This document shows, piece by piece, positions 5,194-8,693 of a DNA stretch of 24,965 bases. Both the position numbers and the translations under genes were made by a program. The notes under the pieces are model-generated. The model saw only the letters and a program-made list of their open reading frames with translations. It searched no databases and was not told the origin of the DNA. The DNA comes from a virus: positions 1-24,965 of the IMG/VR virus record IMGVR_UViG_3300027782_000344, one strand, 5' to 3'. The number at the start of each line of letters is the position of its first letter. Position 1 is the first letter of the stretch.

Positions 5194-5222
5194 TTCGTAA
5201 TGGGAACATGTTTCACTAACCC

Positions 5223-5260
5223 GAGGGACTCCCGCAAAAGTGGGCGTCCCTCTTTATCTT
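5223..5260 (+). terminator. Rho-independent terminator
   Basis: GAGGGAC (5223-5229) pairs with GTCCCTC (5246-5252). Inside, CCCGC (5231-5235) pairs with GTGGG (5240-5244), leaving an AAAA loop, and a TTTATCTT tail follows. It ends the small-gene transcript and separates it from phoH. Confidence 0.85.
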
Positions 5261-5277
5261 CCAAAAACGGAGAAAAA

Positions 5278-6036
5278 ATGGCAATAAGTAAAAAGAAAAT
5301 CCTAACAGGTAATGCCGAGGATGCCGCCACAATCAATGTACAGGCCTCACAGAGGTTAAAAATTCGCATTGATGATTTAAAGACATTTCAGCCTTTAACA
5401 GATAATCAAAAAATATTCTTTGATGCTTATAAACGTGGAGATTATTTTGTAGCTCTTCATGGTGTTGCAGGTACAGGTAAAACTTTCTGTGCATTATATA
5501 AAGCGCTTGAAGAAGTTTTAGATAAAAATAATCCGTTTAATAAAATAATTATCGTTCGTTCAGCTGTCCAATCTCGTGAAATGGGCCATTTGCCTGGTGA
5601 CGTTGATGAAAAAATGGAGATTTATCAACAACCTTATGTTCAAATCTGTGATACATTATTTGGACGCCGTGATGCGTACCAGCGCCTAAGTGAACAACAT
5701 CACATTGAATTCATTTCAACATCGTTCATTCGTGGTATGAGTTTTGATGATGCTATCATTATTGTGGACGAAATGCAAAACTTAACCTTTGAAGAAATCG
5801 ATACAGTTATGACTCGTGTTGGTTACCGTTCAAAGATTATTTGGTGTGGTGACTATCGCCAGACCGATTTGAATAAAAAGAAAAATGACATGAGTGGTAT
5901 TTTGAAATTCTTTGACATTGCACACCACATGGGTGCTTTTACAAGAGTTGAATTTACACCTGATGATATTGTGCGTTCTTCTCTCGTGAAGGACTACATT
6001 TTAGCTAAACTACAGTATGAGGATAACATTGCGTAA
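5278..6036 (+). CDS. phoH: PhoH-family P-loop ATPase, 252 aa
   Basis: Walker A is GVAGTGKT (residues 62-69) and Walker B is IIIVDEMQN (about 160-168), with the conserved ribose-side motifs VRSAVQSREMGHLPGD and the GDYRQTDL segment. PhoH is a helicase-like ATPase whose phage role is still debated; it is a common accessory gene of aquatic T4-like phages. I place the start at the ATG at 5278, preceded by ACGGAGAAA. An upstream in-frame ATG at 5200 would make the coding region run through the terminator hairpin. The end overlaps the exonuclease gene by 20 bases. Confidence 0.95.
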   Translation: MAISKKKILTGNAEDAATINVQASQRLKIRIDDLKTFQPLTDNQKIFFDAYKRGDYFVALHGVAGTGKTFCALYKALEEVLDKNNPFNKIIIVRSAVQSREMGHLPGDVDEKMEIYQQPYVQICDTLFGRRDAYQRLSEQHHIEFISTSFIRGMSFDDAIIIVDEMQNLTFEEIDTVMTRVGYRSKIIWCGDYRQTDLNKKKNDMSGILKFFDIAHHMGAFTRVEFTPDDIVRSSLVKDYILAKLQYEDNIA

Positions 6037-6703
6037 TTTTGAATTTGTGAAATTGGAATCTCTGGCGTTCGATTTGAATGCCGAGACTTCCGCATCGGGT
6101 AGAGTATATGCAACACCAACCGGTGAAAAGTATCCTTCTATAACTACTGTTTTGTCTTCCTTTAATAAGAAGGCTTTGTTTGAATGGCGTAAACGTGTTG
6201 GCGAAGAAGAAGCAAATCGTATTGCAGCCAAGGCTTCTCGCAGAGGTACCAAGTTACATACAGTTTGTGAAAACTATTTGATGGGTGAATTGTCTGGTAT
6301 GAAAATGCAGACTATGATGCCTGATACCAAAGAGTTGTTTATGCAGCTTCGACCATACATTGATGAAAATGTTGGTAAAGTTTATGGTCTAGAACAAGCT
6401 CTTTATTCTCATAAACTCCGTCTTGCAGGTCGTTGTGATTGTATTGCAGAGTGGGATGGTAAATTGTCCATCATTGATTATAAATCTGCTTCACGGGAGA
6501 AAAGCGAAGAAGGTATTTTAAATTACTTTATGCAATGTAGTGCTTATGCCGAGATGTTTGAAGAAGTGACGGGAATGCCGATTGACCAAATTGTGGTTGC
6601 TATTGCTGTTGAAGATGGTTTGCCACAAATATTTACAAAATCAAAAACCGCATATATAGAACCATTGAATGAGTATATCGGCAAATATTGGAATAAAGCT
6701 TGA
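6017..6703 (+). CDS. PD-(D/E)XK exonuclease (RecB/Cas4/MGME1-like), 228 aa
   Basis: The RecB-type nuclease core is visible: H81 in RGTKLHTVCE, E125 in YGLEQALYS, D141 in GRCDCIAEW, D154-Y-K156 in IIDYKSA, and Q173 in QCSAYA. These are the metal and catalytic positions of the Cas4/AddB/mitochondrial MGME1 group. Relatives in cyanophages and other marine T4-like phages are annotated as exonucleases. It probably trims DNA ends in recombination or host DNA breakdown. It lies directly behind phoH with overlap, and its stop codon sits inside the -35 box of the tmRNA promoter. Confidence 0.9.
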   Translation: MRITLRNFEFVKLESLAFDLNAETSASGRVYATPTGEKYPSITTVLSSFNKKALFEWRKRVGEEEANRIAAKASRRGTKLHTVCENYLMGELSGMKMQTMMPDTKELFMQLRPYIDENVGKVYGLEQALYSHKLRLAGRCDCIAEWDGKLSIIDYKSASREKSEEGILNYFMQCSAYAEMFEEVTGMPIDQIVVAIAVEDGLPQIFTKSKTAYIEPLNEYIGKYWNKA

Positions 6704-6728
6704 CATATCTCACAAAATCAAGTATAAT
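6700..6728 (+). promoter_or_regulatory. Consensus sigma70 promoter of the tmRNA gene
   Basis: TTGACA (6700-6705) and TATAAT (6723-6728) are perfect consensus with a 17-base spacer. The start point would be near 6735, just ahead of the acceptor piece of the tmRNA. The -35 box overlaps the TGA stop of the exonuclease gene. Confidence 0.9.
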
Positions 6729-6734
6729 ATTTGA

Positions 6735-7013
6735 TATTGCTGTATGAAGCAAAGAGAAAAGTGTTCTGGACGGGGGTGCGAATCCCCCCAGGTCCACCAT
6801 AAGAGCATATTGTGTTTTTATGATGGGCCTGACCTAGATTCGACAGGGCAACAAGTAAATTAGTGGACAGCACGGGAATGTGAAACCCGTAGGGTTGGGG
6901 GAACTCGGCCGCAGAAGCAAAAAAAGTAAACGCAAACGACTCACAGTTCGCATTAGCAGCCTAAACGCCGCTTAGGGTTTCGGATGGTTTCCTCGTAACA
7001 GAATAACCATCCA
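6735..7013 (+). ncRNA. ssrA: Circularly permuted (two-piece) tmRNA gene
   Basis: The 3' acceptor part comes first. A T-arm GGGGG-TGCGAAT-CCCCC (6772-6788), the acceptor strand CAGGTCC (6789-6795), discriminator A (6796) and encoded CCA (6797-6799) are followed after only 25 bases by the 5' part, GGGCCTG (6825-6831). The two strands form a perfect 7-bp acceptor stem carrying the G3-U70 pair that marks alanine tmRNA/tRNA. Then follow the conserved GACCTAGATTCGACAGGG and a PK1-like ACGGG/CCCGT pair. The tag reading frame is GCA...TAA (6932-6964), encoding ANDSQFALAA. The end is a hairpin, GGATGGTT/AACCATCC (6982-7012). Mature RNA is expected to be two pieces after removal of 6800-6824. The ends at 6735 and 7013 are estimated. 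Confidence 0.93.
6800..6824 (+). other. Intervening segment of the permuted tmRNA precursor
   Basis: The 25 bases between the encoded CCA end and the first G of the acceptor stem are AT-rich. They would be removed by RNase P at 6824/6825 and a 3' nuclease at 6799/6800. The segment is very short. Confidence 0.8.
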
Positions 7014-7032
7014 CTAATTTTATGGAGTTATA

Positions 7033-7704
7033 ATGAAAGTTTACATCAGTAATTACCGCCATCACTGGCTTTCACCTTACCACATCTTAAAGTTTGTGTG
7101 TTTTTGGGAGAAAGATGATAGCATCTTTTATAACCTTGAAGATAAACCTGATGCACCGTATGAAAAATGGGTTAATCGATTACAACCCATTTGTGAGTTT
7201 GGCCAAAAAGTTATGGATATAATTCATCCTAAAATCGACTATGTGAAGATTGACCGATGGGATACTTGGTCTATGGATCACACTCTTGGCCAAATTGCTT
7301 TGCCAATGCTCAAGCAATTACAAGCAAGTAAACACGGCGCACCTTTCGTTGATGATGAGGATGTACCAGAAGAATTGAAATCTACTTCAGCACCTCCAAA
7401 AGAAAATGAATATGATACTGATGCAAATCATTTCAAACGTTGGGATTGGGTAATGAATGAAATGATTTTTGCATTTGAACACCATATTAATAAAGAGTGG
7501 GAAGAAGCATATCGTTCAGGTGAAATAGATTGGAAAAGTGAAGCTTGCGAATGGGACGAAAACGGCAAAGCAAAAATGTTTAAAATGGTTGATGGTCCCA
7601 AAAATACCTATGAATGTGATTATGAAGGTATGAAAGTTGTTGAAGACCGCATCAAAAACGGTTTTAGACTTTTTGGTAAATATTATCAAGCACTTTGGGA
7701 TTAA
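7033..7704 (+). CDS. Conserved unnamed phage protein, 223 aa
   Basis: The start MKVYISNYRHHWLSPYHIL and the core KIDRWDTWSMDHTLGQIALPMLKQL followed by GAPFVDDEDVPEEL mark a family that is common in aquatic T4-like and other large phages but has no function I know of. It is acidic and Trp-rich, without membrane segments. The pattern NHFKRWDWVMNEMIFAFE is also typical. The ribosome site is TGGAGT, 5-9 bases before the ATG. It lies just after the tmRNA hairpin, so it may share the tmRNA transcript or be expressed from another promoter. Confidence 0.85.
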   Translation: MKVYISNYRHHWLSPYHILKFVCFWEKDDSIFYNLEDKPDAPYEKWVNRLQPICEFGQKVMDIIHPKIDYVKIDRWDTWSMDHTLGQIALPMLKQLQASKHGAPFVDDEDVPEELKSTSAPPKENEYDTDANHFKRWDWVMNEMIFAFEHHINKEWEEAYRSGEIDWKSEACEWDENGKAKMFKMVDGPKNTYECDYEGMKVVEDRIKNGFRLFGKYYQALWD

Positions 7705-8129: not shown

Positions 8130-8693
8130 ATGCGAAAATATTTCGTATCAATCAGCATCATTCTTTGTTTAGCAATGATGACTATCGCAGTTGTAGAGGC
8201 AAACCAGATTAAATATTTCTTGCCAAGTAATATTCAATTTTACTCATTGACAAAACCAATGCAGAAACAAGTTGAATGTTTGGCCGAAAATATTTACTTT
8301 GAAGCAGGACATGAATCTAAAAATGGCCAAATAGCTGTGGCCTTAGTTACACTAAACAGATTATCTTCAGGCAACTACGCTAATGATATTTGTGGTGTAG
8401 TTAATCAGAAAACACAAGGCACATGCCAGTTTTCTTGGGTTTGTATGTCAAACTTTACCGATAAACGCTTGACAATTAAGAACACTCCATTGTATAATGA
8501 GGTTCGTAAGATAGCAATGAACGTTGTTTTTAACTATGCCAACCTATCAGACATTACAAAAGGTGCGACTTATTATCACGCTGATTATGTAAATCCAGGT
8601 TGGAAATTGCCGAAGACAACACAGATTGGCGCTCATATCTTTTATAAGAGAGAGTCAGATTTAAAAACTATGACAAAGGAAATCAAACTATGA
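8130..8693 (+). CDS. SleB-type cell wall hydrolase (phage lysin) with signal/anchor, 187 aa
   Basis: A hydrophobic N-terminus (FVSISIILCLAMMTIAVVEA, residues 5-24) forms a signal or signal-anchor. The Hydrolase_2/SleB domain follows: LAENIYFEAGHES with the likely catalytic Glu58, GQIAVALVTLNRL, ICGVVNQ, CQFSWVC, GATYYHADYVNPGW and TTQIGAHIFYK. Such enzymes cut peptidoglycan as muramidase/transglycosylase-like hydrolases. The signal suggests release to the periplasm by the host Sec system. It is followed by an overlapping membrane-protein gene. The ribosome site is AAAGGAGA. Confidence 0.9.
   Translation: MRKYFVSISIILCLAMMTIAVVEANQIKYFLPSNIQFYSLTKPMQKQVECLAENIYFEAGHESKNGQIAVALVTLNRLSSGNYANDICGVVNQKTQGTCQFSWVCMSNFTDKRLTIKNTPLYNEVRKIAMNVVFNYANLSDITKGATYYHADYVNPGWKLPKTTQIGAHIFYKRESDLKTMTKEIKL

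Follow-up and report, generated by a model that had tools for sequence, protein, structure and literature searches.

A beta-type two-piece tmRNA gene in a T4-like phage from water, and candidate protein genes in the intervening segments of its relatives

Background

What might a T4-like phage gain from a tmRNA gene of its own, and does such a gene retain the features of a working molecule? The question is raised by IMG/VR record IMGVR_UViG_3300027782_000344, of which positions 1 to 24,965 (the window, a 24,965-bp fragment of a water phage genome) were analysed here. A preliminary description of this DNA had proposed a circularly permuted tmRNA gene at 6735-7013 and had noted no well-described permuted copy from a T4-like genome. 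The latter remark does not stand, since the two-piece tmRNA of the T4-like methylophage Melnitz, isolated by Buchholz et al. (2022), has been published (PMC9004378) and hundreds of viral copies can be found. Of the 133 unique phage tmRNA structures in the same paper, 53 are two-piece forms, almost all from marine or aquatic samples (PMC9004378), and a tmRNA database paper of 2025 gives 79 phage sequences together with the RF04321 model (PMC11915505). A T4-like phage with a permuted tmRNA is already known, and the window adds a new member of the beta type. The tmRNAs of mycobacteriophages (Bxz1 and others) are one-piece molecules and not permuted. The window copy is phage-borne, as are the Bxz1-type tmRNA and the RNA of phage DS6A, the latter being tRNA-like only and without a tag (PMC4131195).

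The tmRNA gene and its parts

ARAGORN called a complete permuted tmRNA gene with the tag ANDSQFALAA in the window. The Rfam models searched with cmscan agree with this call in position: RF04321 (tmRNA_permuted) matched 6738-6964 with 128 bits (cut-off 47, E 4e-25) and RF01850 (beta_tmRNA) matched 6686-7033 with 123.3 bits (cut-off 84, E 2e-37). The parts of the gene and its neighbours, all on the + strand, are as follows; the parts of the two pieces were placed by ARAGORN and Rfam unless another source is given.

5200..6036, + strand: PhoH-like gene (PF02562), syntenic with Melnitz and cyanophages
6017..6703, + strand: PD-(D/E)XK exonuclease gene (PF12705, phrog_298), the conserved upstream neighbour of the tmRNA
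6700..6728, + strand: predicted sigma-70 consensus promoter, TTGACA-17-TATAAT, 12/12 match with a 17-base spacer
6735..6799, + strand: acceptor piece of the precursor (5' end approximate; ARAGORN, Rfam RF04321/RF01850)
6739-6743, + strand: P2 3' strand GCTGT, in the acceptor piece
6762-6768, + strand: 3' strand of the helix after the D-loop, in the acceptor piece
6772-6788, + strand: T-arm, in the acceptor piece
6789-6795, + strand: acceptor 3' strand CAGGTCC (also read from the sequence)
6796-6799, + strand: discriminator and CCA (ACCA; also read from the sequence)
6800..6824, + strand: intervening segment of 25 nt with a predicted short hairpin (motif search, fold)
6825..7012, + strand: coding piece, from the acceptor 5' strand to the 3' hairpin (3' end approximate)
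6825-6831, + strand: acceptor 5' strand GGGCCTG, followed by the D-loop, in the coding piece
6844-6850, + strand: helix strand in the coding piece
6867-6871, + strand: P2 5' strand, followed by a pseudoknot-like region
6932..6964, + strand: tag reading frame ANDSQFALAA with stop TAA (ARAGORN)
6982..7012, + strand: 3' hairpin GGATGGTT...AACCATCC with the conserved loop CCTCGTAACAGAA (sequence, relatives)
7033..7704, + strand: downstream gene (phrog_11543), starting ~20 nt past the tmRNA

The acceptor and T-arm half lies upstream of the tag half, the two acceptor strands form a 7-bp stem with the G3-U70 pair, and the tag frame, with its resume region, ends in a hydrophobic -AA degron. The main claims of the preliminary description are borne out by these results: the permuted gene itself, for which it had proposed a covariance-model search that has now scored a permuted tmRNA, the 7-bp stem with G3-U70, the tag and its TAA stop, and a consensus promoter of the gene's own. 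The attribution to a T4-like phage also holds, as the window contains genes for gp32, gp59, PhoH, a tail-tube cap and an exonuclease.

The predicted fold of 6735-7022 has a free energy of -92.3 kcal/mol (z -3.2), better than all of 200 shuffled sequences. Among relatives, the stems of the 3' hairpin vary and still pair, while the loop CCTCGTAACAGAA is unchanged. A perfect 11-bp helix between AAATTAGTGGA (6857-6867) and TCCACTAATTT (7010-7020) was considered as a stem that might close the coding piece and was rejected as a feature of the family, the pairing of a copy's own strands (11.67) being no better than that of swapped strands (11.74) in 125 copies. The intervening segment at 6800-6824 would be absent from the mature tmRNA.

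Genomic position and type

The T4 replication and tail genes of the window indicate a myophage related to the Kyanoviridae; its gp32 DNA is 73% identical to that of cyanophages and is closest to that of marine cyanomyoviruses. No + strand terminator was found between the tmRNA and the gene at 7033..7704, and this gene is probably co-transcribed with the tmRNA. The tmRNA's gene block also holds a GP88 family gene (PF17338, 1383-2132) and a cell wall hydrolase gene (8130-8693).

The ssrA gene of Melnitz (MZ577097) occupies the same syntenic place, in the gene order PhoH, PD-(D/E)XK nuclease, tmRNA, gp33, gp59 and gp32, and is likewise a permuted two-piece tmRNA gene of a T4-like phage. It differs from the window copy in being of the alpha type (RF01849, 106.7 bits), in its intervening segment of 142 nt as against 25 nt, in its tag (ANDNYVPVDYALAA as against ANDSQFALAA) and in the glutamine riboswitch 3' of the tmRNA. 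The window copy is assigned to the betaproteobacterial type from its Rfam scores and the appearance of the bacterial copies rather than from a resolved tree: RF01850 is the best-scoring model of its clan for this copy, above its cut-off, and in 11 sampled relatives every hit passing a subtype cut-off was beta, none being alpha or cyano. A cyanobacterial-type permuted tmRNA (RF01851, 120 bits) was observed in marine virus AG-345-P14 (MH319764), a Kyanoviridae record. With Melnitz alpha, the window beta and this record cyano, all three types occur in this phage group.

Strong permuted matches (>120 bits) were obtained in 17 of 399 Burkholderiales genomes, and these RF01850 copies resemble the window copy in gene order, fold and AND...AA tags, as well as in their short intervening segments, which form a short stem and, in unambiguous cases, measure 25-43 nt. 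The phage copy encodes the final A of CCA; in most of the bacterial copies with the best scores this A is not encoded. A DNA search of the 399 Burkholderiales genomes gave short matches only. A search of genomes from 84,980 species for codon forms of the tag ANDSQFALAA had no match, which means no more than that no close donor was found.

Spread among phages

The search of other phages for the same permuted gene, suggested in the preliminary description, yielded viral contigs with some 300 permuted copies. At least 119 IMG/VR contigs contain the exact 21-base core of the tag, and all copies there that ARAGORN can call are permuted. A motif search (T-arm, 7-bp acceptor and D-arm motif) found permuted tmRNA in 314 of 396 viral loci, some on contigs of more than 300 kb. 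When the 80 closest exonuclease loci were examined with ARAGORN, 44 had a permuted tmRNA downstream of the exonuclease in the same orientation, its start lying no more than ~700 nt beyond the nuclease match. In roughly half of the related nuclease loci ARAGORN detected no copy, so that the tmRNA might be dispensable there, located elsewhere or missed.

Distant blastn matches of the window tmRNA to phage isolates were fragments only; the matched records nonetheless held permuted copies. Culturable phages with a permuted tmRNA include Xanthomonas phages X1, Rb1 and XacN1, Pseudomonas aeruginosa phages SM1, PaMx31 and UF_RH6, and phages of Stenotrophomonas, Alcaligenes and Acinetobacter (among them BUCT628). 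The hosts Pseudomonas, Xanthomonas and Acinetobacter have one-piece tmRNAs of their own. In the records of these culturable phages (L462-L470) no tmRNA feature is listed over the permuted copies, one record being wholly unannotated. As a separate observation, two viral copies (L163 and L164) are near-identical in the acceptor piece and intervening segment and different in their pseudoknot regions and tags; to judge from this pair, phage tmRNA genes seem to be mosaics whose parts may have been swapped by recombination.

Selection on fold and tag

Pairing was examined in 298 phage copies found by a search that did not require acceptor pairing; the kinship of the sequences inflates the pairing and tag counts that follow. 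All seven acceptor pairs are formed in 290 of the 298 copies, with 17 types of stem, as against only ~96 fully paired when partners are exchanged between copies. G3-U70 is present in all 298, and the T stem, of 15 types, is paired in all 298 as well. All 124 tags called by ARAGORN end in LAA, MAA or IAA, and the 44 exonuclease-linked loci, which had not been selected by tag, have 16 different tags with a degron end in each. Stem types that differ at positions 4-6 on both sides would be hard to explain without selection, and this comparison of sequences argues for strong selection for tmRNA function across the phage copies. Compensated stems and kept tags form the pattern of a working tmRNA, unlike that of a decaying passenger or a tagless decoy.

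A probable role during infection

We consider it very probable that the window gene specifies a functional two-piece tmRNA of the betaproteobacterial type for use during infection, a reading based on the gene calls, the acceptor and T-stem pairing, G3-U70, the degron tags, the conserved position, the consensus promoter and the lack of a phage SmpB. A search that was positive in 10 of 14 control genomes detected no SmpB in 28 large phage records, so the SmpB used is presumably that of the host. The host polymerase would transcribe the gene early in infection, RNase P would cleave before G6825, and host tRNA 3' enzymes would cleave after the CCA at 6799 and thereby free the 25-nt segment, leaving two pieces held together by the acceptor stem and P2 pairing. 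Host alanyl-tRNA synthetase could then charge the molecule by way of G3-U70, and host SmpB could bring it to ribosomes that have stalled on broken mRNA of host or phage, where addition of ANDSQFALAA would consign the stalled products to ClpXP-type proteolysis. The gain to the phage might lie in ribosomes and amino acids freed while messages are being destroyed, and it is plausible that the phage copy replaces or competes with host tmRNA.

The same lack of SmpB in the 28 records might be taken to mean that the phage RNA is a decoy, one that sequesters SmpB or alanyl-tRNA synthetase of the host and thereby blocks trans-translation there, as has been proposed for DS6A; a DS6A-like molecule did inhibit tmRNA, perhaps through titration of SmpB (PMC4131195; PMC11915505). 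A decoy needs no tag, however, and the intact tag frames with a degron end in 124 of 124 copies, together with the 16 tags of the set unselected by tag, make this explanation unlikely. That the gene is a passenger, captured from a host by recombination and now drifting, would agree with the many T4-like relatives in which no copy was detected and with the suggestion by the Melnitz authors that phage tmRNA was perhaps acquired through prophages (PMC9004378), but is highly improbable in view of the conserved genomic position and of the compensatory changes in the stems, the constant G3-U70 and the uniform tag ends of some 300 copies.

Candidate protein genes in the intervening segments

The intervening segments of the phage copies, as delimited by the motif search, range from 20 to 415 nt, and some have room for a protein gene. 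A frame of 25 codons or more that opens close to the 5' edge and has its stop by the 3' edge is present in 29 of 175 distinct segments, as against 9.7 expected from shuffled sequences, and 15 have such an edge-to-edge frame of at least 35 codons (1.4 expected); these counts come from unbiased scans, a scan deliberately biased to AAGGA having been excluded from the frequencies. All scans pooled, nested frames of 25 to 133 codons occur at 98 loci, 72 of them distinct (L351, L356, L373, L398, L251, L282, L124, L123, L030 and about 90 others), and some of the shortest will be due to chance. One nested gene specifies a thioredoxin (PF00085, E 4e-21; the example is L351), another a CxxCxxCC protein (PF03692, E 1e-6), and a third matches phage family phrog_1679. 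The tmRNA copy with the thioredoxin gene still scores 136 bits in Rfam across the insert. Related cargo genes differ chiefly at third codon positions, as in a 123-codon family with 5, 4 and 27 differences at the three positions.

The edges of the segments pair with each other, 5' TAAGGAAGTTT with 3' AAGTTTCTTTA. In 229 segments the pairing of a segment's own ends was 21.0 versus 11.4 ± 0.27 for swapped ends, and inside the cargo set it was 19.7 versus 15.2 ± 0.4. In the commonest form of cargo, the Shine-Dalgarno sequence lies in the 5' strand and the last codons (VSL-stop) in the 3' strand. Two close relatives of the window have cargo at the same locus (L123, 32 aa; L124, 63 aa), and the 25-nt segment of the window has no frame. 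The 142-nt segment of Melnitz holds an open run of 45 codons that exceeds shuffles and continues into the coding piece. A further segment, of 188 nt (L133), was seen to contain a cargo peptide frame followed by what may be a degenerate repeat of the acceptor stem and CCA (GGGTCAGCCAGGTTCACCAGAAG); its sequence suggests that the tmRNA junction has been partly duplicated.

We infer, with somewhat less assurance than for the tmRNA itself, that the segment probably serves as a cargo slot, which about one-sixth of the distinct unbiased copies fill with a frame at the 5' edge, and that the precursor would be both an mRNA and a tmRNA. The start usually stands behind a Shine-Dalgarno sequence (AAGGA) directly after CCA, and as a rule the frame stops 1 or 12-13 nt short of the coding piece. 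Within the stem that the two ends of a segment form, the last codons of the cargo would pair with the Shine-Dalgarno sequence, and cargo translation and tmRNA processing may exclude each other or set each other's timing. The window copy would be a cargo-free version of the same slot. It could be supposed from the nested genes that the locus is mainly a cargo site or regulatory leader, where the tmRNA fold serves to release nested mRNAs by processing, but this is scarcely credible given that most copies, including the window's, have no nested gene and yet retain tag and fold.

Implications

These results indicate that the beta-type two-piece tmRNA is a common and selected component of aquatic T4-like phages and of some jumbo phages, which would make the control of ribosome rescue a regular phage function. 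The unannotated permuted copies in culturable phages make the function of phage tmRNA testable. Inside such intervening segments the open-access papers searched mention only one tRNA and one repeat, and no nested protein genes; as far as those papers go, the nested protein genes of the relatives appear to be unreported. The cargo slot in these relatives is the part worth following: if its nested genes are expressed, they would represent a new way of accommodating a protein-coding gene within the gene of a processed non-coding RNA.
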